A program made the position numbers and the translations under genes. From positions 62,001-126,000 of the forward strand of contig NZ_BJUB01000012.1 of the NCBI RefSeq assembly GCF_007989805.1: a stretch of DNA of 64,000 nucleotides, in the 5' to 3' direction. Below the pieces are notes generated by a model, which saw nothing but the letters and a program-made list of their open reading frames with translations, was not told where the DNA came from and did no database searches. The DNA comes from Cellulomonas xylanilytica. Its GTDB lineage: Bacteria > Actinomycetota > Actinomycetes > Actinomycetales > Cellulomonadaceae. Of this stretch, positions 25,889 to 45,269 are shown in pieces (within the stretch, counting starts at the first letter, position 1; every line of letters begins with the position of its first letter).

Positions 25889-25932
25889 ACGAGCGGTCCG
25901 CGGCCCGCACCTGGGAGACTGGGACGTCGTGA
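25885..25932 (+). CDS. Second bridging mini-ORF (15 aa)
   Basis: ATG 25885 overlaps the kinase-like gene stop (ATGA) and TGA 25930-25932 overlaps the GTG of hrpA (GTGA). The product would be MNERSAARTWETGTS. The arrangement is the same as at 23740-23790, suggesting a coupling role. Its composition is not distinctive. Confidence 0.35.
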   Translation: MNERSAARTWETGTS

Positions 25933-28900
25933 CCACGCCGCCCCCCTCCCCCGTCGACCCGCCCGGGTCCGGTGCGGGGCGACCCCCGAGACGGCGGGGA
26001 CCCCGCCGCCGCAAGCCGGCGCCGGAGCACGCACAGCAGCGCTCCGAGCGCACCCCGGACCAGCAGGGCCGACGTCCCTCGGGGCAGCGTCCGGCGAGCC
26101 GCGGGAGGTCGGGTCGCGACGACCCCGCGCGCGCTGCCGCCCGCCGGGAGCGGGCCACGGAGATCCGCCGAGCCGTCGACCTCCCGCCGATCGTCTATCC
26201 CGAGCAGCTCCCGGTCAGCGCCCGTCGCGCCGAGATCAGCGACGCGCTGCGCGACCACCAGGTCGTCGTCGTCGCCGGTGAGACCGGGTCCGGCAAGACG
26301 ACGCAGATCCCGAAGATCGCGCTGGAGCTGGGGCGGGGCCGCGCCGGGCAGATCGGCCACACGCAGCCGCGTCGGATCGCCGCCCGCAGCGTGGCCGAGC
26401 GGATCAACGAGGAGCTGGTCGGTGACGCGCCCCTCGGCGGGATCGTCGGGTACCAGGTGCGGTTCACCGACGAGTCGAGCGAGTCGACCCTGGTCAAGGT
26501 CATGACCGACGGCATCCTGCTGGCGCAGATCCAGCGGGACCCGATGCTGTGGGCCTACGACACGCTGATCATCGACGAGGCGCACGAGCGGTCGCTCAAC
26601 ATCGACTTCATCCTCGGCTACCTGACGCGGCTGCTCCCCCAGCGGCCGGACCTCAAGGTGGTGATCACGTCCGCGACGATCGACTCCGCTCGCTTCGCGC
26701 GGCACTTCGCGTCCGCGGACGGGGAGCCCGCGCCGGTCGTGGAGGTCAGCGGGCGCACGTACCCGGTCGAGATCCGCTACCGACCGCTGTCGCCGGACGT
26801 GGAGGAGGGCGCACCGCCGACGAAGAAGCGCGCGTCGGAGGACCGCGACCCGATGACGGCGATCTGCGAGGCCGTCGACGAGCTCAGTGCCGAGGGACCG
26901 GGCGACATCCTCGTGTTCCTGTCGGGCGAGCGGGAGATCCGCGACGCCGAGGACGCCCTGCGCTCGTCGCTCGGCGTCCGCGTCAGCGACCCGCGCAGCC
27001 CGAACGCCGTCGAGCTGCTCCCCCTCTACAGCCGCTTGTCCGCCGCCGAGCAGCACCGCGTCTTCGAGCGCCACCAGAACCGGCGCGTGGTCCTGTCCAC
27101 CAACGTCGCCGAGACGTCGTTGACCGTGCCGGGCATCCGGTACGTCATCGACCCCGGCACGGCCCGCATCTCGCGGTACTCGAAGGCGACGAAGGTCCAG
27201 CGGCTGCCCATCGAGCCCATCTCGCAGGCGTCCGCCAACCAGCGCTCGGGCCGGTGCGGGCGCGTCGCCGACGGCATCGCGATCCGGCTGTACTCGCAGG
27301 ACGACTTCGACGCGCGGCCTCTGTACACCGAGCCGGAGATCCTTCGTACATCGCTCGCCTCGGTCATCCTGCAGATGATCGCGGTGGGTGTCGCGACGAC
27401 CCCCGAGGACATCGGCGACTTCCCGTTCGTCGACCCGCCGGACACCCGCGCGGTCCGCGACGGCGTCCAGCTGCTGACCGAGCTCGGCGCGCTCGGCGAC
27501 GGCCGCCTGACCGACACCGGCCGCGCGCTGGCGCAGCTGCCGATGGACCCGCGGCTGGCGCGGATGATCGTCGAGGGAGGCCGCCGGTCGGTCGCGCGCG
27601 AGGTCATGATCATCGCCGCGGCCCTGTCCATCCAGGACCCGCGCGAGCGCCCGGTGGAGGAGCGCGAGAAGGCCGACCTCTCGCACTCCCGGTTCACGGA
27701 TCCCACCTCTGACCTGCTCACCTACCTCAACCTCTGGCACTACCTGCGCGATCAGCAGCGGGACCTGTCGGGGTCGGCCTTCCGCCGCATGTGCCGGTCC
27801 GAGCACCTCAACTACCTGCGCATCCGCGAGTGGCAGGACGTGGTCACGCAGCTGCGGGAGCTGGCGAAGCCGCTGGGCATCGTCGTCAACTCCCCGCGGT
27901 CCGCGCAGGAGGGCGACGGGCTCCAGCTCGAGTGGGACGGCGACCGGATCCACGTCGCGATCCTGGCCGGGCTGCTCTCCCAGATCGGGATGCAGGAGGC
28001 GACGGAGGTCGCGTCGCAGAGCAAGGGCCGTGCGCAGGGCCGGCCCGACCGCCGGGGCCGCAACGAGTACCTCGGTGCTCGGGGAGCGCGGTTCGCGATC
28101 TTCCCCGGGTCCGGCCTCGCCCGGAAGCCTCCCGCGTGGGTCATGGCCGCCGAGCTGGTCGAGACCTCGCGCCTGTGGGGCAGAGACGTGGCCCGCATCC
28201 AGCCCGAGTGGGCGGAGGAGGTGGGCGCCCACCTGGTCAAGCGGACCTACTCCGAGCCGGCCTGGTCCACCAAGCAGGGTGCCGCGACGGCCTTCGAGAA
28301 GGTGCTGCTCTACGGCGTCCCCATCGTCACGCAGCGCCGGGTGCTCTACGCCAAGGTCGACCCGGAGCACGCCCGCGAGCTGTTCGTGCGGCACGCGCTG
28401 GTGCAGGGCGAGTGGTCCACCCACCACGCGTTCTTCCACGAGAACCGTCGCCTGCTGGCCGAGGCGGAGGGCCTGGAGGCGCGCGCCCGCCGGCGCGACC
28501 TCGTCGTCGACGACGACACGCTGTTCGCCTTCTACGACGAGCGGGTCCCGGACGACATCGTCTCCAGCCGGCACTTCGACCAGTGGTGGAAGTCGGCGCG
28601 TCGCGAGAACCCCGACCTGCTGACGTTCACGCGCGAGCTGCTGGTCGGCGAGGCGGGGGCCATCGACGAGTCGGCGTTCCCGTCGCGCTGGCCGCAGGGC
28701 GACCTCCGCCTGCCACTCACGTACCAGTTCGAGCCGGGTACAGAAGCAGACGGCGTGACTGTACACATCCCGCTCTCGACGCTCGCGCGCCTCACGCCGG
28801 ACGGCTTCGGCTGGATGGTTCCCGGCCTGCGCGAGGAGCTGGTGACCGCCACCATCCGCTCCCTGCCCAAACCCGTGCGCGTGCAGCTGGTCCCCGCGCC

Positions 28901-30176
28901 CGACGTCGCCCGCGCCGTGGACGCGTGGATGACCGAGCACACCGCCGACTGGGAGGACACCGTCCGCGCCGGCGACGCGGCGCCGTCGTTCCGCGAGGTG
29001 TTCCGTCGCGCGGTGCGCGAGCTGCGCGACGTCGACGTGCCCGACGACGCGTTCGACGACGACCGGCTGCCGCCGCACCTGCGGATGACGTTCCGGGTGG
29101 TCGGCGACCGCGGGGGAGTGGTGGACGAGGGCAAGGACCTGCTGGTCCTGCAGCGCCGCCTCGCAGCACAGACCCAGCAGGCCGTCGACGACGCGGTCCG
29201 GACCGCGGTGCGGGCGGCGATGGAGGAGGCCCGCAAGGCGACCCCGGTGGTACCAGCGCCCACGGTCGATGCGGCCCCTCAGGCCCCTGCGCCCCCGGCA
29301 CCCGCCGCCGTCGACGTGGAGCGCACCGGCCTGACCACCTGGCCGGCGGACCTGCCGGAGCTGCCGGAGGTGGTCGAGGTCGGCAGGGTCCGCGCGTACC
29401 CGTCGCTGGTCGAGGAGAAGCAGACCGTCGCCGTCCGTGCGCTGGCCGACGAGTCCACCGTGGCCGAGGCGTCCCGGCGCGGGCTGCGCCGCCTCCTCCT
29501 GCTCGACGTCGGCCTGGCGACGGGCCGCGTCACGTCCCGGTGGACGGGGACCCAGGCGCTCACGCTCGCCGCCAGCCCGTATCCGAGCACGGAGGCGCTG
29601 GTCAGGGACGTGCAGCTCGCTGCCATCGAGTCCCTGATCGCGTCACCTCCCACCAGCATCCGGACGCTCGACGCCTACACCGCCCTCCGCGCAGCAGTGC
29701 GCGACCGTCTCGAGGACACCGTGTTCGCGGTGGTCACCGACCTCGTCGCGGTGCTGACCGCCTGGCGTGAGCTCGACGCGGAGGTCCGCGACCGGTCCAG
29801 CCTGGCGCTGCTGGCCACCGCCCAGGACGTCCGCGCGCAGGCGGCCCGACTGGTCCACGACGGGTTCGTCGGCGAGACCGGCGCCGACCGCCTCCCGCAC
29901 CTGGCCCGCTACCTCAGGGCCGCCCGGCACCGGTTGGTCAAGGCTGCCGACAACCCGCAGCGCGACGCCGACCTGGCGTGGCAGGTGCAGGACGTCGAGA
30001 CGCTCTACGACGAGGTCGCCGCCGCGCAGCCGCACGACCCCGAGGTCGCCGCCGTCCGGTGGATGCTCGAGGAGCTGCGCGTCAGCCTGTTCGCCCAGCA
30101 GCTGGGGACCCCCGTGCCGGTGTCGACCACGCGCATCAGGAAGGCCCTCACCCGGACCTCACCCGGTCGGATCTAG
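25929..30176 (+). CDS. hrpA: ATP-dependent RNA helicase HrpA
   Basis: A 1415-aa DEAH-box helicase. A basic, disordered N-terminus (1-75) precedes Walker A GETGSGKT (117-124), DEAH 216-219 in IIDEAHERS, SATID, and the motif VI block QRSGRCGR. The helicase-associated and OB-fold regions and the long C-terminal DUF3418 domain follow, the layout of HrpA rather than HrpB. HrpA acts on structured RNA and stalled ribosomes in E. coli. The C-terminal region carries an A/P-rich insert near 1110-1125. GTG 25929 overlaps the 15-aa mini-ORF. Confidence 0.93.
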   Translation: MTTPPPSPVDPPGSGAGRPPRRRGPRRRKPAPEHAQQRSERTPDQQGRRPSGQRPASRGRSGRDDPARAAARRERATEIRRAVDLPPIVYPEQLPVSARRAEISDALRDHQVVVVAGETGSGKTTQIPKIALELGRGRAGQIGHTQPRRIAARSVAERINEELVGDAPLGGIVGYQVRFTDESSESTLVKVMTDGILLAQIQRDPMLWAYDTLIIDEAHERSLNIDFILGYLTRLLPQRPDLKVVITSATIDSARFARHFASADGEPAPVVEVSGRTYPVEIRYRPLSPDVEEGAPPTKKRASEDRDPMTAICEAVDELSAEGPGDILVFLSGEREIRDAEDALRSSLGVRVSDPRSPNAVELLPLYSRLSAAEQHRVFERHQNRRVVLSTNVAETSLTVPGIRYVIDPGTARISRYSKATKVQRLPIEPISQASANQRSGRCGRVADGIAIRLYSQDDFDARPLYTEPEILRTSLASVILQMIAVGVATTPEDIGDFPFVDPPDTRAVRDGVQLLTELGALGDGRLTDTGRALAQLPMDPRLARMIVEGGRRSVAREVMIIAAALSIQDPRERPVEEREKADLSHSRFTDPTSDLLTYLNLWHYLRDQQRDLSGSAFRRMCRSEHLNYLRIREWQDVVTQLRELAKPLGIVVNSPRSAQEGDGLQLEWDGDRIHVAILAGLLSQIGMQEATEVASQSKGRAQGRPDRRGRNEYLGARGARFAIFPGSGLARKPPAWVMAAELVETSRLWGRDVARIQPEWAEEVGAHLVKRTYSEPAWSTKQGAATAFEKVLLYGVPIVTQRRVLYAKVDPEHARELFVRHALVQGEWSTHHAFFHENRRLLAEAEGLEARARRRDLVVDDDTLFAFYDERVPDDIVSSRHFDQWWKSARRENPDLLTFTRELLVGEAGAIDESAFPSRWPQGDLRLPLTYQFEPGTEADGVTVHIPLSTLARLTPDGFGWMVPGLREELVTATIRSLPKPVRVQLVPAPDVARAVDAWMTEHTADWEDTVRAGDAAPSFREVFRRAVRELRDVDVPDDAFDDDRLPPHLRMTFRVVGDRGGVVDEGKDLLVLQRRLAAQTQQAVDDAVRTAVRAAMEEARKATPVVPAPTVDAAPQAPAPPAPAAVDVERTGLTTWPADLPELPEVVEVGRVRAYPSLVEEKQTVAVRALADESTVAEASRRGLRRLLLLDVGLATGRVTSRWTGTQALTLAASPYPSTEALVRDVQLAAIESLIASPPTSIRTLDAYTALRAAVRDRLEDTVFAVVTDLVAVLTAWRELDAEVRDRSSLALLATAQDVRAQAARLVHDGFVGETGADRLPHLARYLRAARHRLVKAADNPQRDADLAWQVQDVETLYDEVAAAQPHDPEVAAVRWMLEELRVSLFAQQLGTPVPVSTTRIRKALTRTSPGRI

Positions 30177-30180
30177 CACA

Positions 30181-30203
30181 ACTGTCGTCCCATATGTGAC
30201 AGT
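30181..30203. promoter_or_regulatory. Inverted repeat before the AAA/DUF4157 module
   Basis: ACTGTC (30181-30186) and GACAGT (30198-30203) form perfect 6-bp arms around an 11-base centre containing CATATG. It lies about 60 bases before the ATPase ATG and just after hrpA, so it may be an operator for the module or part of a terminator. No match to a named regulator. Confidence 0.4.
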
Positions 30204-30262
30204 CGTCAGGACGGCCGCCGACGGGGCACGGCGACGGTCGACGCATCGACAGGGGGCAGGAC

Positions 30263-32197
30263 ATGCGCGAGCGTCTCGCCGCGCTGGTGAAGCAGGTCTG
30301 TGTCGCGGGTGACCGCCGGCAGGGCCTCGACCCCGACCTCCGGACGCGTCTGGACAATGTCCTGGCCGTGCTCCGCGACGAGCACGCCGAGCCGGGCACC
30401 ACGCACGACGACCCCCTCGCGGGTCTCGCGGACGTGTTCGGCCTCGACGAGCAGGACGCCGAGCTGCTGACGATCGCCGCGGCACCGGACCTCGACGCCA
30501 ACCTCGCGCTGGCGTTCGGCCTGCTGCGCGGAGGTCCGTCGCCCGCCCGGGCCACCGTCGGCCTCGCGCTCGAGCTGGCGTCCCTGCCGACGCTCTCCGG
30601 CGCCGGGCCCACGTACCTGGGTCCCGCCGCCCTGACGCGTCGGCACGGCCTGCTCGACGTCGCGCCCGCGCCCGCGCTGTGGCTGGGCCGCGAGCTGTGG
30701 GTACCCGACCGGGTGCTGGCCCACCTCGTCGGCGTCGACGAGATCGACCCGCTCCTGCGGCCGGCGCTCGTCCTGCCCGTGCCCGTGGACCGGCTCGACG
30801 TGGACGGGATCCTCGCGGCGGCGGTCACGGCGGGCGAGCCGCTGGTCTGGATCCGCTCGCCGCTCGGGTCCGGCGGCCTGTCGCTCGCCGCGGCGGCGCT
30901 GTCGGCGGCCGGGATCGGCTGCCTGGCCCTCGACCTCGCCCGCGTCGCACCCGGCGCCGACCTCCGGCACGTCCTCGCGGTGACCGCCCGGGAGGCGGCG
31001 CTGCAGGGTGCCGGGCTCGTGCTCGTGCACGCGGAGCGGCTCGCGGAGGACGACCCCGCCACCCTGTTCGCGGCGCTGGCCGAGGCCGTCGTGCCGGTCC
31101 TGGCCGTGGGTGACCGGCCCTGGCAGCCGCCCTGGCTCGCCTACCACCCGCTCGTGCTCGAGGCGCCCGCGGTGACCACCGAGGACCGCGCGCTCGTCTG
31201 GGACCGCGAGCTCGGAGCCGGGATCGCGGACCACCGCCTGGCCACCTTCCGGCTCGCGCCCGAGGTCATCGCCGACGCCGCCCGGTACGCCACCACCCTC
31301 GCCGACGTCACGGCGACGGAGATCACGGCCGACTCCGCCCGAGCCGCCGCCCGGCGCGTGGGCGGCTCGATCACGTCCGGTCCGGCGCTGGTGCCGACGC
31401 GTCCCCCGACCTTCGCCGACCTCGTCCTGCCCGACCACGTGGCCCGTCCGCTGCACCGGTTCGTGTCCTGGGCGGCACACCGCGACGAGGTCCTCGCGGA
31501 CGGCCGCCTGGTCGACGTCGGGGGCAAGGGGACCGGCATCGCCGCACTGTTCAGCGGCAGCCCCGGCACCGGCAAGACGCTCGCCGCGCACGTCGTCGCC
31601 GCCGAGCTGGGCCTCGACCTGTTCCGGGTCGACCTGGCGTCGATCGTCGACAAGTACATCGGCGAGACCGAGAAGAACCTCGAACGGGTCTTCCACGAGG
31701 CGGAGAGCCTGAACGTCCTGCTCTTCTTCGACGAGGCCGACGCCCTGTTCGGCAAGCGCTCCGACGTCAAGGACGCGCACGACCGGTACGCCAACCAGGA
31801 GGTCGCGTACCTGCTGCAGCGGATGGAGAGCTTCGACGGGGTCACCGTCCTGGCCACCAACCTGCGCGGCAACCTGGACCCCGCGTTCAGCCGGCGGATG
31901 AGCTTCATCGTGCACTTCCCCGACCCGGACGTGCCCACGCGGCAGCGCCTCTGGGAGCGGCACCTCTCGCGCGTCACCACCGACCCGGCCGACCCCGTGC
32001 AGGTGGCGCACCTGGCGCAGGAGGTCGAGCTCGCGGGCGGCGACATCCGCAACATCGTGCTCGCCGCCGCGTACGACGCCGTCGCGGCCGGGGAGTCGGT
32101 CGGCATGCGGCACGTCCTGGCGGCGACCGTCGCCGAGCACCACAAGCTCGGTCGCCGCGTCCCCGAGAACGCGTTCTCACCCGACCGCGCCCGATGA
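30263..32197 (+). CDS. eCIS-type AAA+ ATPase (Afp15/CIS15-like)
   Basis: A 644-aa protein. The N-terminal 400 residues contain a degenerate, leucine/alanine-rich ATPase-like domain. The C-terminal AAA+ module has Walker A GSPGTGKT (432-439), Walker B LLFFDE (486-491), sensor-1 N533 in LATNLRG and arginine fingers R544/R545. The block DEADALFGKRSDVKDAHDRY with NQEVAYLLQRMESFDG is typical of AAA proteins encoded beside DUF4157 proteins in extracellular contractile injection loci. A strong AGGGGG site precedes the ATG. It probably remodels or loads the next gene's product. No contractile genes are nearby. Confidence 0.82.
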   Translation: MRERLAALVKQVCVAGDRRQGLDPDLRTRLDNVLAVLRDEHAEPGTTHDDPLAGLADVFGLDEQDAELLTIAAAPDLDANLALAFGLLRGGPSPARATVGLALELASLPTLSGAGPTYLGPAALTRRHGLLDVAPAPALWLGRELWVPDRVLAHLVGVDEIDPLLRPALVLPVPVDRLDVDGILAAAVTAGEPLVWIRSPLGSGGLSLAAAALSAAGIGCLALDLARVAPGADLRHVLAVTAREAALQGAGLVLVHAERLAEDDPATLFAALAEAVVPVLAVGDRPWQPPWLAYHPLVLEAPAVTTEDRALVWDRELGAGIADHRLATFRLAPEVIADAARYATTLADVTATEITADSARAAARRVGGSITSGPALVPTRPPTFADLVLPDHVARPLHRFVSWAAHRDEVLADGRLVDVGGKGTGIAALFSGSPGTGKTLAAHVVAAELGLDLFRVDLASIVDKYIGETEKNLERVFHEAESLNVLLFFDEADALFGKRSDVKDAHDRYANQEVAYLLQRMESFDGVTVLATNLRGNLDPAFSRRMSFIVHFPDPDVPTRQRLWERHLSRVTTDPADPVQVAHLAQEVELAGGDIRNIVLAAAYDAVAAGESVGMRHVLAATVAEHHKLGRRVPENAFSPDRAR

Positions 32198-32237
32198 CTG
32201 CCCAGTGACTGCACGGTGACACGGAAGGAGGCCAGCC

Positions 32238-34418
32238 ATGCCTGCGGAACATGACCGGACGACGCTCGAGAGGGCCCGCGAGCGGGTGGCCGTGCAGGGC
32301 GCGCCCGCCGTGCGCACCGTGGCCGTCGCACCGGTGGCCGTCCACGGCCTCGCGACGGGCGTCCAGCGCCGGTCCACCGGCGACGACCCGCTGGGCGGCA
32401 CCACCGTCGCGCCCGAGATCGGCACCGCCCTGCGCCGCCGCCAGGGCGGTGGCCGGCCCCTGGAGGCCGAGCACGCCGACCGCATGGGCGCCGCGATGGG
32501 GGTCGACTTCAGCGGGGTGCGGATCCACGACGACAGCGAGGCCGACACGATCGCGCGCTCCGTGCAGGCCACCGCGTTCACCGCGGGGTCGGACGTCTAC
32601 TTCACGCGCGGCACCTACACGCCGGGGACCTCCGGCGGCGACCACCTGCTGGCGCACGAGCTGGCCCACGTCGCCCAGGGCGGCGCCCCCACCGCCTCCG
32701 CGCAGGGACCCGTCATCGGCAGCGCGAACGACCCCGCCGAGGCCGCCGCCGACTCCCTGGCCGACAGCGCCGTGCGCCGGCTGCAGCGGCAGACCGCGCG
32801 CGTGTCCGCCGCGAGCGCGCCCGCTGCCGCCGAGGCACCCGGAGAGGCGCTCGCCCCGCTGCGCCGGCAGGCCGAGCAGGCCGGCACCGTGCGCCGGTGG
32901 AACCCGTTCAAGGCGCTGTTCGGCGGCAAGAAGAAGAAGCTCTCGACCACGACGCCCGTCCCGTCGCCCGTCACGACCCCGGTCGTGCCGCAGGTCGCGG
33001 TGCCGCAGGTCGCGGTCCCGCAGGTCGCGGTCCCGCAGGTGGTGGTCCCGCCCACCAAGCCGGCGAAGCCACCGCGGAGCCCCAAGCCGCTGCCGAAGGT
33101 CCCCGTCCCGCAGGTCGCCGACGCGTCCAGCACGACCACGCCGGTCACGACGCCCGAGCCCGTGTCGCCGACGTCGGCGGTCGCGGACCCGGTCGTCGCC
33201 ACGGTCGCGGACCCGGTCGTCGCTACGGTCGCGGACCCGGTCGTCGCCACGGTCGCGGACCCGGTCGTGGAGACCGTCGCCGACCCCGTCGCAACAGCCG
33301 TCGTCGACCCCGCCGCGACAACCGTCGTCGACCCCGTGGCCGACCCCGTCGCAACGACCGTCGCCGACCCCTCGGTGGTCCCGACGGACGCCACGGCGTC
33401 CACGGCCCTGGTCGCACCCACGGCGACCGTGCCCGTCGTGGCCACCCCCGAGGTCGTCACGCCGCCGGCGCAGAAGCCGGCGAAGGAACGCTTCGAGGCG
33501 GCCTGCGACCCCCAGACGGCACCGGCGGACAAGGGCGTCGCGAGGACCCGGATGGACGCCCTGCGCGTGATCATCAACGGGTTCAGCGGTGCGGAGAAGA
33601 AGGCGATCTCGACCGACCCGGACGCCATGGCCAAGGGTCGCGCGCACCTGGGCGACCTGTACTACATGTCGCTGCTGGCCGCGGTCGACACGAACGTCAT
33701 GAAGACGGACGACGTCGACGCGACGAAGAAGACGAAGCACCACCTGACGGGCGCCGAGGCGGACGAGTTCATCAAGACGAACATCGAGGACTACCCGCAC
33801 CTCAAGCCGTTCATCGAGGCGGCGGTGGGCGCGGGGAAGAAGGGCGAGGGCTACGTCGCCAGCATCTCGCCCGAGGACTGGGCGATCGTGTACGGGGTGG
33901 AGTTCCCGCACGACTCGCAGGAGGAGCAGGAAGACACCAACGCCTACGCGTCGACCAAGAACGCGGACGGCCCGGCGATCCTGCACGCCGATCGCGGGAC
34001 CCCCAGCACGGCGATCCACGAGAGCATGCACCGGTACGCACCGGACGACGTGCTGGACACGTTCGGCTTCGACCTCAACGAGGGGATCACCGAGTACTTC
34101 ACGCGCATCCTGACCAACCAGAAGGCGCAGCCCGCCAAGGACGGCGGCCCCGAGCGGACCAACTACCCCGGCCAGGTGGCGTTCGTCCGCGAGATGGTCC
34201 GGATCCTCGGCGCCACCAAGGTCGAGCAGGAGACCGTGCTGGCGCAGATCTACTTCGAGGGCAAGCTCGCCCTGTTCAAGACGAAGTTCAAGGAAGCGCA
34301 CGCGGCCAAGACCAGCACGCTCACCGAGGCCGAGCTGGACGACGCCTGGTCGTCGTTCAAGGGCTTCGTCGAGAATGGCGACTGGTCGGACGCCAGGACG
34401 AAGCTGCCCGCCCCGTGA
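32238..34418 (+). CDS. DUF4157 (eCIS core) protein with C-terminal gluzincin-like protease domain
   Basis: The 726-aa protein has four parts. Residues about 70-148 are a DUF4157 domain: GVRIHDDSEAD, TAFTAGSDVYF and AHELAHVAQGG with zinc motif H140-E-L-A-H144. A polybasic patch (KKKK, 231-234) follows. The linker has tandem PQVAV repeats (about 251-270) and VADPVVAT repeats (about 315-350). The C-terminal domain (about 412-726) carries a second zinc motif HESMH (594-598) and NEGITEY (614-620), where E615 would be the third ligand, as in gluzincins. GGAAGGAGG precedes the ATG. There is no signal peptide, fitting non-classical cargo. Function is inferred. Confidence 0.82.
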   Translation: MPAEHDRTTLERARERVAVQGAPAVRTVAVAPVAVHGLATGVQRRSTGDDPLGGTTVAPEIGTALRRRQGGGRPLEAEHADRMGAAMGVDFSGVRIHDDSEADTIARSVQATAFTAGSDVYFTRGTYTPGTSGGDHLLAHELAHVAQGGAPTASAQGPVIGSANDPAEAAADSLADSAVRRLQRQTARVSAASAPAAAEAPGEALAPLRRQAEQAGTVRRWNPFKALFGGKKKKLSTTTPVPSPVTTPVVPQVAVPQVAVPQVAVPQVVVPPTKPAKPPRSPKPLPKVPVPQVADASSTTTPVTTPEPVSPTSAVADPVVATVADPVVATVADPVVATVADPVVETVADPVATAVVDPAATTVVDPVADPVATTVADPSVVPTDATASTALVAPTATVPVVATPEVVTPPAQKPAKERFEAACDPQTAPADKGVARTRMDALRVIINGFSGAEKKAISTDPDAMAKGRAHLGDLYYMSLLAAVDTNVMKTDDVDATKKTKHHLTGAEADEFIKTNIEDYPHLKPFIEAAVGAGKKGEGYVASISPEDWAIVYGVEFPHDSQEEQEDTNAYASTKNADGPAILHADRGTPSTAIHESMHRYAPDDVLDTFGFDLNEGITEYFTRILTNQKAQPAKDGGPERTNYPGQVAFVREMVRILGATKVEQETVLAQIYFEGKLALFKTKFKEAHAAKTSTLTEAELDDAWSSFKGFVENGDWSDARTKLPAP
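32989..33048 (+). repeat. 15-bp tandem repeat, about four copies
   Basis: Four consecutive units of CCGCAGGTCGCGGTC-like sequence encode PQVAV repeats in the linker of the DUF4157 protein. The last unit is diverged to give PQVVV. Confidence 0.8.
33179..33290 (+). repeat. 24-bp tandem repeat, about four copies
   Basis: Units of GTCGCGGACCCGGTCGTCGC-type sequence repeat every 24 bases and encode VADPVVAT. Decayed copies (VADPVATA, VVDPAATT) continue to about 33377, suggesting repeat expansion followed by divergence. Confidence 0.8.
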
Positions 34419-34440
34419 CGCCGACCACCGAGGAGACCCC

Positions 34441-34794
34441 ATGACCGGCATCGCCGAGAAGCGCCGTCGCATCCTGACGCTCCTGCGACTGACCGACGAC
34501 CACGCCGTCCGGGACACGGACGCGGTGCCGACGGCGGAGGACGTCGGGGCGGCCGACGCCCTGGGTCTCGACTGGCCCGACGGGCAGGCGCACGTCTCGG
34601 TGTACCTGTTCCCCGGCTACGACGAGGCCGCTGCGGCGCAGGAGCGGCTGCAGGGCTACGGCGCGCAGACGGACCTGTTCGTCGAGACGGCGGTCAACGG
34701 CGGTCTGCTGCTGTGGGCCGTGGCGCCCCGCGACGACGAGGCGGACCGGGCACGGATCGACGGCCTCGCCGGCACGTTCTCGGGCCGGGAGTGA
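34441..34794 (+). CDS. Small hypothetical protein (117 aa) of the AAA/DUF4157 module
   Basis: Function not recognised. The protein is acidic and soluble, with a helical N-terminus (IAEKRRRILTLLRLTDDH), a GLDWPDGQAHVSVYLFPGYDEAAAAQ segment (shown in part) and an alternating strand pattern near LLLWAVAPRDDE. GAGGAG lies 6 bases before ATG 34441, and the gene begins 22 bases after the DUF4157 protein, so it is almost certainly cotranscribed. Position and acidity would fit an immunity or chaperone protein, but that is only inference. Confidence 0.72.
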   Translation: MTGIAEKRRRILTLLRLTDDHAVRDTDAVPTAEDVGAADALGLDWPDGQAHVSVYLFPGYDEAAAAQERLQGYGAQTDLFVETAVNGGLLLWAVAPRDDEADRARIDGLAGTFSGRE

Positions 34795-34821
34795 CACCGG
34801 CCGCCTCGCGTGCACGGCAGC

Positions 34822-34847
34822 CCGCGCCGCCCGAATGGACGGCGCGG
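34822..34847. terminator. Hairpin between the DUF4157 module and the ABC exporter
   Basis: CCGCGCCG (34822-34829) pairs with CGGCGCGG (34840-34847) around a 10-base loop, between convergent genes. No T-run follows. Confidence 0.55.
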
Positions 34848-34859
34848 CCCCGTGGACGG

Positions 34860-35642
34860 TCAGCGGGTGCGCCGGAACAGCCCCGCGGCGACCAGCCGTG
34901 CCACCACGAAGATCCCGAGGCACCAGGTGACGGCCGCGACCCACGAGTCGCCCGCCGGGACACCCAGCAGCAGACCTCGGAGCGTGTCCGTCACCGGGGT
35001 GATGGGGTTGTAGGTGGCGAGCGTCTCCAGCACGGAGGGCATGGACTCCGGCGGCACGAACGCGCTGGACACGTAGGGCAGGAACAGGATGGCGAAGGTG
35101 AAGCCGCTCGCTGCCTCGGGCCCGGACGCGACGATCCCGATGGCCACGGCCACCCAGGTCAGCGCCAGGACGAACAGCGCGATCAGCCCGATGGCGCCGA
35201 GCCACTGCACCGGTGAGGCAGCCGCGTCGAACCCGATGAGGATCGCGACGGCGAACACCAGCACGGTGGAGACCGCGTTGCGGGCCATGCTTGCCACGAC
35301 GTGCCCGGTGAGGACCCCGGTCGGGCGGATGGGCAGGGACCTGAACCGGTCGATGATGCCGCCGGTCATGTCGCTGGCCACGTCGACGGCGGTCGTGGCG
35401 GACCCGTAGCCGGCGGTCAGCAGGACGATCCCCGGGACCACCCAGTTCACGTAGTCGCCCCCGGTCTGGATGGCGCCGCCGAAGACGTAGACGAAGAGCA
35501 GGAGCAGCACGACCGGCAGGATCACCGCCATGAGGACGGTGTCCAGCTGCCGCAGCGAGCGGCGCAGGCACCGGTCGATCAGGGCGGTGGTGTCGTGGGC
35601 GGTCCAGCCGAGGGCCGGGGGTGCAGCGGTCAGCGTGGTCAT
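34860..35642 (-). CDS. ABC-2 type transporter permease (drug exporter)
   Basis: A 260-aa permease with six predicted helices and the ABC-2 signature around SGFTFAILFLPYVSSAFVPP, followed by NPITPVTDTLRGLLLG, as in DrrB-type daunorubicin-resistance permeases. The ATG overlaps the stop of the ATPase gene (TGATG), so the two subunits are translated together. Substrate unknown, but DrrAB-like systems export hydrophobic drugs. Confidence 0.9.
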   Translation of the reverse strand: MTTLTAAPPALGWTAHDTTALIDRCLRRSLRQLDTVLMAVILPVVLLLLFVYVFGGAIQTGGDYVNWVVPGIVLLTAGYGSATTAVDVASDMTGGIIDRFRSLPIRPTGVLTGHVVASMARNAVSTVLVFAVAILIGFDAAASPVQWLGAIGLIALFVLALTWVAVAIGIVASGPEAASGFTFAILFLPYVSSAFVPPESMPSVLETLATYNPITPVTDTLRGLLLGVPAGDSWVAAVTWCLGIFVVARLVAAGLFRRTR

Positions 35643-36547
35643 CAGGACTCCCGGGCGGTGACGAGTTCGGGGGCGGGCTCGGTCGGCCGGCCCGTGAGGG
35701 TGAGGAAGACGTCGTCGAGCGTGGGGGAGCGGACCTCCCAGGTGTCGACGTCGACGCCCCGGCGCTCGACGTCCGCGAGGATCCGCCGGACGTCCGGCAC
35801 CGAGCCGTCGGTGGTGATGCGCTCGTCGGTGCCGTCCTTGAGGCGCAGCTCGACGTGGGCGGAGCCGACCGCTCCCTTGAGCTCGCGGGCCGTGCCATCC
35901 GCGATGACCCGTCCGTGGTCGATCACCGCGATGCGGTCGGCCAGCTGGTCGGCCTCCTCGAGGTACTGCGTGGTGAGCAGCACGGTGGTCCCGGCCGCGA
36001 CGACCGACCGGATCACGTCCCACAGGTCGTTGCGGCTGCGGGGGTCGAGCCCCGTCGTCGGCTCGTCGAGGAACACCACCTGCGGCCGGGACAGCAACCC
36101 CACGGCGAGGTCGAGCCGGCGCCGCATGCCACCGGAGTAGGTCTTCACCACGCGCCGGCCCGCGTCGGTGAGGTCGAAGAGCTCGAGCAGCTCGGCGCTG
36201 CGCGAGCGGACCTCGGCACGCCCCAGGTGCGCCAGGCGCGCCATGAGGTGCAGGTTCTCGACACCCGTGAGCAGGTCGTCGACGGCCGCGAACTGGCCGG
36301 TGAGGCTGATCGCGGCGCGCACCTCGGCGGGCTGCCGGACGACGTCCTTGCCGGCGACGTGCGCGGTGCCACCGTCCGGACGCAGGAGCGTCGAGAGGAT
36401 GCGCACGGTCGTGGTCTTGCCGGCGCCGTTGGGACCGAGCAGTGCGAGCACCTCGCCGGAGCCGACCTCCAGGTCGACGCCGTCGAGCACGGTCAGGTCG
36501 CCGTAGGACTTGCGCAGCCCCCGGGCGACCACGACGGGTGCAGTCAT
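35642..36547 (-). CDS. ABC transporter ATP-binding protein (DrrA-like)
   Basis: The 301-aa ATPase has Walker A GPNGAGKTT (about residues 38-46), signature YSGGMRRRLDLAVGL, Walker B VVFLDEPTTGLD and switch TQYLEEADQLADR, the pattern of the daunorubicin-resistance DrrA subfamily. A C-terminal domain of about 80 residues follows (SPTLDDVFLTLTG). ATG 36547 is preceded by AAGGAG. The gene is divergent from the TetR gene across two operator-like sites, so it is probably repressed by it. Confidence 0.92.
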   Translation of the reverse strand: MTAPVVVARGLRKSYGDLTVLDGVDLEVGSGEVLALLGPNGAGKTTTVRILSTLLRPDGGTAHVAGKDVVRQPAEVRAAISLTGQFAAVDDLLTGVENLHLMARLAHLGRAEVRSRSAELLELFDLTDAGRRVVKTYSGGMRRRLDLAVGLLSRPQVVFLDEPTTGLDPRSRNDLWDVIRSVVAAGTTVLLTTQYLEEADQLADRIAVIDHGRVIADGTARELKGAVGSAHVELRLKDGTDERITTDGSVPDVRRILADVERRGVDVDTWEVRSPTLDDVFLTLTGRPTEPAPELVTARES

Positions 36548-44749: not shown

Positions 44750-44983
44750 TCAGCGGATGCCGTGCTCGATGGCCCAGGCGACTGCCTCGGCCCGCGTGGA
44801 GGCACCGATCTTGCGGTAGACGCTGCGGACCTGCGACTTCACGGTGTTCCTGGTCACGAAGAGCCGCGTCGCGATCTCCTCGAGGGTGACGTCCTCGGCG
44901 AGCTCGGCCAGCACGACCCGCTCGCGGCGCGTGAGTGCGTCGTTCGAGAGCCCGACGGTCCTGCTCGTCTCCAACATGCTCAT
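44750..44983 (-). CDS. Stand-alone LuxR-type HTH protein (77 aa)
   Basis: The protein is little more than a GerE/LuxR DNA-binding domain: LTRRERVVLAELAEDVTLEE, IATRLFVTRNTVKSQVRSVY, RKIGASTRAEAVAWAIEHGI. There is no receiver or ligand domain and no kinase next to it, so it may respond to another partner or act constitutively. GGAGG with a 6-base spacer precedes the ATG. A 286-bp upstream region, A/T-richer than average, likely holds its promoter. Confidence 0.88.
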   Translation of the reverse strand: MSMLETSRTVGLSNDALTRRERVVLAELAEDVTLEEIATRLFVTRNTVKSQVRSVYRKIGASTRAEAVAWAIEHGIR

Positions 44984-45269
44984 GATGTTCCTCCGGTGTG
45001 CTGCGTGATCCGGGGGGTCCGGGTCACGCTCTGGGCTGCGTACCGGATGAGAGAGGGCTGGTGGTGAGCCATGACGCCACTTCCAGCAATCTCCTCATGG
45101 GCGGGTTCCCCCCCGCCGTGCGCCCGATCGCGCTTGCCACCCACAATGAATGCCGAGTTCTCCAGCTGATACGCCGAACGTGTGATCAGGACCGAGTTTT
45201 CACCCGGACGGCTGACCAGGACGTGTGGCGAGACTCACACATCTGCAACGAGCCCAGAGGCGTCGAGGT
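44984..45269. promoter_or_regulatory. 286-bp intergenic region upstream of the LuxR gene
   Basis: The region between gcvH and the LuxR-type gene is less G+C-rich than its surroundings, particularly 45080-45200. It includes a homopolymer C run near 45110 and a weak dyad GTGTG/CACAC (45223-45240). No ORF, RNA family or clear -35/-10 pair was identified. Confidence 0.4.

Follow-up and report, generated by a model that had tools for sequence, protein, structure and literature searches.

Why would a loading ATPase and a cargo protein of an extracellular contractile injection system (eCIS) be encoded at a place without particle genes? The question is raised by a three-gene cassette of Cellulomonas xylanilytica at 30263..34794 of a 64,000-nucleotide stretch, here called the window (C12:62001-126000, contig NZ_BJUB01000012.1), which belongs to a 4.44-Mb genome (G000) in 23 contigs and consists of high-GC DNA. 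The cassette encodes a Pvc15/Afp15-like AAA+ ATPase, a protein with the DUF4157/eCIS_core domain and a small protein. Our analysis indicates that it is most probably a remote loader-cargo-partner set of an actinobacterial eCIS, acting in trans with a particle encoded on another contig, C5, of the same genome. A preliminary description of the locus had left open whether it was a remote cargo locus or an independent system, and the first reading is borne out by the two particle clusters of the genome, one of which, C5, is without exactly these genes.

The cassette and its surroundings

The three co-directional genes, encoding the ATPase (30263..32197, 644 amino acids, aa), the cargo (32238..34418, 726 aa) and the small protein (34441..34794, 117 aa), all on the plus strand, form a tight cassette between an hrpA-type DEAH helicase gene, the left insertion border (25929..30176, plus strand; PF11898, PF00271), and an opposite-strand pair of ABC transporter permease and ATPase genes, the right insertion border (34860..36547, minus strand; PF01061, PF00005). 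The tight linkage of the three genes without a nearby particle gene, already pointed out in the preliminary description, was confirmed over 104 kb. Six-frame searches at E up to 0.01, with profiles derived from related clusters for nine particle proteins, Pvc16, two fibre-like proteins and cluster neighbours, found no particle structural gene in C12:42001-146000 (the window plus 20 kb on each side), and within this interval the ATPase is not encoded in a particle cluster of its own genome. The sole match outside the cassette was a regulator-type domain at 44753-45094 (E 2.7e-4).

Two details of the earlier description were revised. The strong ribosome sites attributed to all three genes are seen, by eye, as strong Shine-Dalgarno sequences before the cargo and small genes, while the ATPase gene has a weak G-rich site. 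The small gene itself stands, and its former start at 34375, which overlaps the end of the cargo gene, gives way to the likelier ATG at 34441, favoured by a GAGGAG ribosome site and by an alignment of eight homologues.

Particle clusters in the same genome

A whole-genome search for particle genes found two sheath genes and four tube-type matches, on contigs C1 and C5, so that the suggestion of a particle elsewhere was correct. By Pfam, the C5 cluster encodes a sheath, two tubes, a CIS_tube/LysM protein, a spike, gp25, baseplate J, Tail_P2_I and Pvc16 (families matched include PF04984/PF17482, PF06841, PF04717, PF04965, PF04865 and PF14065), together with large CarboxypepD_reg-repeat proteins, termed fibres here, and a LuxR-type AAA regulator. 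Directly after Pvc16 follow a DUF4280 gene and a gene for a 157-aa protein. C5 holds no eCIS_core match and no match to the window ATPase; for each, the genome has five matches, all on other contigs. In the available text of PMC11495950, particles without Pvc15 are described as intact yet payload-free. A C5 particle without an ATPase of its own would likewise be empty unless supplied in trans, and the window cassette would be its natural supplier.

A second eCIS, of another lineage, lies at C1:363196-381195 (L012, L013, L078) and encodes an ATPase of its own together with an eCIS_core cargo of 1269 aa. Pfam gives eCIS_core alone for this cargo, tail included; HAE and PCxxC motifs in the tail recall, as we read them, deaminases. 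The presence of this particle in the same genome raises the alternative that the cassette is an extra loader-cargo set for the C1 particle, or for both, and does not replace a cassette lost from C5. Remote C1 cargo seems to exist, for eCIS_core proteins are encoded far from the sheath genes (C1:183k, C9:170k), one of them 57% identical to the C1 cargo; against this stands the fact that C1 already has an ATPase and cargo of its own. Together with the arrangement in relatives described below, this leads us to regard service to C1 as unlikely.

The two distant eCIS_core proteins, at C1:182736-186806 (L016) and C9:170507-172336 (L017), stand beside neither an ATPase match nor a sheath match. The identity of the L016 protein to the C1 cargo extends over 973 aa and its tail is different, as though the effector end had been swapped. 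Separately, C4:186021-191993 (L018) encodes a protein of 1990 aa that matches eCIS_core marginally and in part (25.4 or 22.2 bits), around an HELTH motif.

Occupied and empty sites in relatives

Related ATPase loci were collected with a six-ATPase alignment, which was scanned against species genomes, and the best 80 loci named below are taken from 555 confirmed among at least 595 pattern matches. Genes of relatives were called with a simple custom caller, and the particle profiles were built from those same clusters. In the C5-type clusters of three genomes, G003, G010 and G016, the fibres and Pvc16 are followed by an ATPase-eCIS_core-small cassette of another type and then by DUF4280/PAAR and 157-aa-type genes, a pair that is inverted in G010 and whose copies in G018 carry DUF4280 and Septum_form domains by Pfam. 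This junction between Pvc16 and DUF4280 is empty in four genomes (G000, G018, Root485 and Leaf334), and in the same four the cassette lies at the hrpA/ABC site. Misassembly is ruled out by the recurrence of one arrangement in four genomes. G016 has, in addition, a distinct cluster at C10:183379-198542 (L076) that shows two matches to the sheath and encodes an eCIS-type ATPase as well as a 1900-aa protein matching eCIS_core.

The native position of the cassette can be read from its nearest relatives among the best 80 loci. Apart from Leaf334 and Root485, whose ATPases are 95% identical to that of the window, these are the metagenome bin L083 (76%), Actinotalea sp. M2MS4P-6 (75%) and Cellulomonas sp. 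73-145 and SG140 (72%). All four of these relatives at 72-76% carry the same trio, with a tail-matched cargo and the 117-aa protein, between Pvc16 and a 129-aa DUF4280-type gene. In G061, G062 and G063 (an Actinotalea and two Cellulomonas; ATPase identities 75, 72 and 72%) the complete cluster, which runs from the regulator and sheath genes to DUF4280, lies on one contig. In these three genomes the trio is native to C5-type clusters, and in all four occupied genomes the junction of a C5-type cluster is empty; both observations argue against a set dedicated to C1 and favour the cassette as the displaced partner of the C5 particle.

The hrpA site was read in 19 regions of same-genus genomes: one (Leaf334) holds the cassette and 18 lack it. 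In three of these 18 (G039, G005 and G008) hrpA directly adjoins the ABC genes. The empty site of G039 has an hrpA 90% identical and ABC genes 87 and 92% identical to those of the window; the final hrpA codons at the occupied border differ from this empty-site version. Two regions (L220, L222) have a single unrelated gene between hrpA and the ABC genes, and most of the remaining ones have no ABC pair there. The leader between the hrpA stop and the ATPase start (30177..30262, plus strand) was compared by eye over 140 bases at seven loci: it is alike in the three occupied loci compared (window, Leaf334 and Root485) and unlike the upstream DNA of four native loci, which suggests that the cassette moved without its native promoter. 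A search of 30050-35000 found no sigma-70-type promoter.

Carriage by a mobile element or insertion at a tRNA site was considered and found to be unsupported by tRNA, repeat, plasmid and phage searches. The window contains no tRNA gene, and about 120 bases taken at each border have no word of 9 or more bases in common. Of 80 plasmid records, which matched at 60-80% identity, not one spanned 80% of the query, and coverage reached no more than 16% among the ten records listed; a phage search returned no match. A scan of viral contigs returned one relative, L040. As a separate observation, the gene content downstream of hrpA varies among many same-genus genomes (L214-L229), and the site may be generally prone to insertion.

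Exchange between lineages and selection

The cassette and the particle have different nearest relatives. For eight of nine particle components the nearest relative of C5 outside its own clade is G010, and for the ninth G010 is level with G060 and G061. A tree of eight concatenated components, which leaves out the C5-type particle of Leaf334, groups C5 with G010 at 100/100, whereas the ATPase tree groups the window ATPase with G060-G063, also at 100/100. Constraining the ATPase tree to unite the window clade with G010 and L101 was rejected by the approximately unbiased test (p-AU 0.000475), as was a particle tree uniting C5 with G060-G063 (p-AU 1.1e-5). Removal of the C5 cluster's own cassette to another site, without exchange, was rejected, the particle being nearest to G010 but the ATPase to G060-G063, and the incongruence of the two trees leads us to conclude that the cassette has undergone exchange in addition to displacement.

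All three cassette genes keep an open reading frame in each of the four genomes compared. By a simple counting method, the ratio of nonsynonymous to synonymous substitution rates (dN/dS) is 0.06-0.10 for the ATPase, 0.24-0.39 for the cargo and 0.19-0.41 for the small protein, over six pairs each, and 0.08 for the C5 sheath in one pair. Judged from these codon patterns, the cassette is still in use and under purifying selection. A decaying remnant of a lost eCIS would be compatible with a cargo that evolves faster than the ATPase, but reading frames that stay open in four genomes and an ATPase constrained much like the C5 sheath make such a remnant most improbable.

The ATPase, the cargo and the small protein

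The ATPase assignment rests on PF00004, the motif alignment and the neighbourhoods of relatives. The open reading frame matches the AAA family PF00004 at E=6.3e-28, and PF22977 WHD scores 26 bits, slightly below its cut-off of 27. In its N-terminal half a P-loop-like SPLGSGGLS is without the Walker A lysine, and its C-terminal half holds an active-looking AAA module with GSPGTGKT at 432-439, DEAD at 490-493, N533 and R544-R545; GTGKT, DEAD, N533 and R544-R545 are invariant across the six-sequence alignment. At 69 of the 80 best loci, at least one particle-cluster gene lies in the flank examined, as befits an eCIS ATPase.

The same C-terminal module also resembles IetA (PADLOC E=7.3e-36; NCBIfam 115.8 bits), which invites comparison with IetAS, an anti-phage defence pair of an AAA ATPase and a protease. 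The similarity is limited to residues 385-626, however, and its 115.8 bits fall far below the NF042959 cut-off of 510, so that the protein is not an IetA by that measure; its partner carries an eCIS_core domain and has no PADLOC match, and the particle-cluster genes adjoining most of the best related loci argue in the same direction. We consider a defence pair extremely unlikely and rejected it on the sub-threshold IetA score.

The DUF4157 call made earlier for the second gene is well founded: PF13699 (eCIS_core) matches residues 74-149 of the cargo at E=1e-26 with 93.3 bits against a cut-off of 22, and the domain lies at 32457..32684 on the plus strand (E=2.2e-27 at C12:94457-94684 in the own-genome search). 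The protein comprises an N-terminal leader, eCIS_core with HELAH at 140-144, a repetitive Pro/Val/Thr-rich linker, whose length is unequal in an alignment of G000 and G018, and a metallopeptidase-like C-terminal domain (33474..34415, plus strand). In an alignment of eight cargo sequences, down to 49% identity, HESMH (594-598) and NEGITE (614-619) of this domain are conserved, and only I617 varies. We take the resulting HExxH...NExxxE pattern to recall thermolysin-type zinc peptidases. The C-terminal domain gave no Pfam or NCBIfam match with the window sequence and no PDB sequence match with its profile; the homologue at L089 gave three weak sub-threshold Pfam matches, including one to a peptidase family (E 0.18). 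A structural model, of moderate confidence (predicted local distance difference test, pLDDT, 70.9), places the two motifs on neighbouring helices.

The 117-aa protein is assigned as a partner of this cargo type from its co-occurrence with the cargo tail. With a profile built from two sequences, it was detected in all seven of the best 80 loci that have this tail and in no locus among the remaining 73, a confinement that marks it as a cargo-specific partner. Downstream of other cargo types lies a different small gene, in one case weakly YbjN-like (E 0.029). The protein is predicted as a small alpha/beta fold (pLDDT 89), and a fold search gave nothing under E 0.001, the best match having E 0.018 and a template modelling score of 0.38.

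Distribution of ATPase loci and particles

Eleven of the 80 best loci, which are no measure of population frequency, have no particle gene in the flank (L081, L082, L088, L090, L093-L097, L103 and L104), and ten remain once L094, an uninformative 5-kb contig, is set aside. Nine of these particle-free loci were compared. Their common flanking genes are ABC-ATPase-like genes, those of the near-copy pair L095/L104 and single matches between L090 and L097 and between L097 and L104; with so few in common, the loci sit at different places. The ATPases of L095 and L104, which are 92% identical, come from metagenome bins called Actinomycetes and Proteobacteria, a discrepancy that suggests mis-binning.

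A sheath gene was found in all 15 genomes checked for one, a selection that holds 16 of the 80 loci and, through common genomes, covers ten of the eleven particle-free loci (not L094). In a separate set of 29 genomes searched alike, our own included, the ATPase was detected at E 1e-30 in seven and a sheath in nine, all seven lying within the nine; such an overlap would arise by chance about 2 times in 100,000 if the genomes were independent, which they are not.

These results bear on the second possibility raised at the outset, an independent, particle-free delivery or toxin-maturation device. The local isolation of the cassette would fit such a device, as would an eCIS_core match without a sheath match in two of the nine eCIS_core-positive genomes, G007 and G025, the latter marginal. 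Opposed to it are the sheath in all seven ATPase genomes of the 29 and in the 15 further ones, the same trio within three whole particle clusters, and the conserved eCIS gene set beside homologous modules at most of the best loci, an observation that the preliminary description had itself named as grounds for refutation. The proposal was not borne out, and we regard it as highly improbable. The G007 match (C60:201-422, L055; 70.2 bits) is a contig fragment in a same-genus draft of 280 contigs.

In two Nocardioides genomes, too, ATPase and particle genes lie on different scaffolds. Nocardioides sp. 1609 has a cluster in which Pvc16 stands beside 157-aa and DUF4280 genes, with no ATPase in the 80 kb read, and two ATPase loci (L096, L103) on scaffolds other than that of the particle. 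In Nocardioides sp. Iso805N an ATPase-DUF4157 locus lies on a scaffold different from that of the sheath, where no ATPase was found in the 60 kb read; neither Pvc16 nor DUF4280 was found in this particle cluster. Cellulomonas cellasea ET82 and Nakamurella silvestris have ATPase loci with particle-free flanks, the native junction being past the contig end or not seen.

Proposed mechanism and significance

We infer the following sequence of steps. The ATPase, presumably as a hexamer like Pvc15, would bind the leader and eCIS_core part at the N-terminus of the 726-aa protein, and its C-terminal AAA module would unfold this cargo and thread it, while the C5 particle assembles, into the lumen of its tube. 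Contraction would then deliver the cargo, whose zinc-peptidase-like C-terminal domain may act in the target, while the 117-aa protein would serve as a dedicated partner, either a chaperone or an immunity protein. Historically, an ancestor of the four sequenced genomes may have lost its native cassette at the Pvc16/DUF4280 junction, and a cassette of the Actinotalea-type lineage may have come to lie between hrpA and the ABC transporter genes, with the exchange falling before or after the move.

Several points weigh against supply of the C5 particle by this cassette, or against parts of that account. G013 and G014 have a sheath without such an ATPase, and the two genomes with eCIS_core and no sheath match run counter to it as well. 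The C1 ATPase, 47% identical to the window ATPase over 280 aa, could in principle load both particles, and C5 and C12 are separate contigs in this assembly, the spacing in G018 being 466 kb on one contig. The groups used in the tree tests were named after the identities had been seen, and the ATPase tree has long branches. No trace of a mobile element or flanking repeat accounts for the move. As for the cargo, the model of its C-terminal domain is of moderate confidence and matched no solved fold (best E 0.51). Finally, at L089 (3627-8457 of a Pseudonocardiales metagenome contig) Pvc16, the same cargo tail and a 123-aa homologue of the small protein accompany an ATPase of another clade, so that ATPase and cargo are not strictly tied.

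A broader proposition, to which we give about even chances, is that actinobacterial particles are loaded by interchangeable cartridges, each made of an ATPase, an eCIS_core cargo and a cargo-specific small protein, which are exchanged between lineages as units and may lie anywhere in the chromosome, one particle being served by one or several unlinked cartridges. The split loci of Nocardioides sp. 1609 and Iso805N also support it. A loader-cargo cassette far from its particle implies that cargo repertoires may be larger than counted and that an exchange of ATPase and cargo need not involve the particle. It further offers a natural test of whether the ATPase of one lineage loads the particle of another, and hence of the basis of loading specificity; where the locus is split and the native junction empty, loading in trans becomes directly testable in a soil actinobacterium.

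Comparison with known systems

In the accessible parts of the literature, DUF4157 is described as an eCIS core domain that marks effectors (PMC8213781), and in Streptomyces davawensis a DUF4157 effector co-elutes with spike-complex proteins (PMC11126660). As far as their available text goes, effector surveys look mainly in or near the particle operon, and in one training set 88% of eCIS-associated toxins (EATs) lie at most ten genes from it (PMC11297309). Among the papers listed in literature searches, judged by title and abstract start and with subscription papers and preprints mostly outside the coverage, none deals with ATPase-effector cassettes apart from the particle.

The ATPase has a plan similar to that given for Pvc15 in the available text of PMC11495950, where an N domain is joined by two AAA modules and ATPase activity resides in the second module alone; the same source cites earlier work in which unfolding persisted despite Walker mutations. 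Like Pvc15/Afp15, the window ATPase is an AAA+ protein whose C-terminal module looks active and whose N-terminal half has no proper P-loop, and its gene stands beside Pvc16 in relatives, with cargo adjoining. Unlike in the Photorhabdus virulence cassette, the ATPase, cargo and partner lie apart from the particle, and the history of the cassette differs from that of the particle. With DUF4157 effectors and EATs the cargo shares an N-terminal eCIS_core with HExxH, a long linker and a C-terminal domain; it departs from known ones in a C-terminal HExxH...NExxxE domain outside Pfam families, in a 117-aa partner of its own next to it and in its remoteness from the particle. Orphan islands of the type VI secretion system, with hcp, vgrG and PAAR genes apart from the full cluster, likewise encode parts of a contractile system away from the machine, as far as the accessible text of PMC13098142 describes them, but unlike those islands the satellite described here carries a loading ATPase with its cargo and no tube or spike parts.

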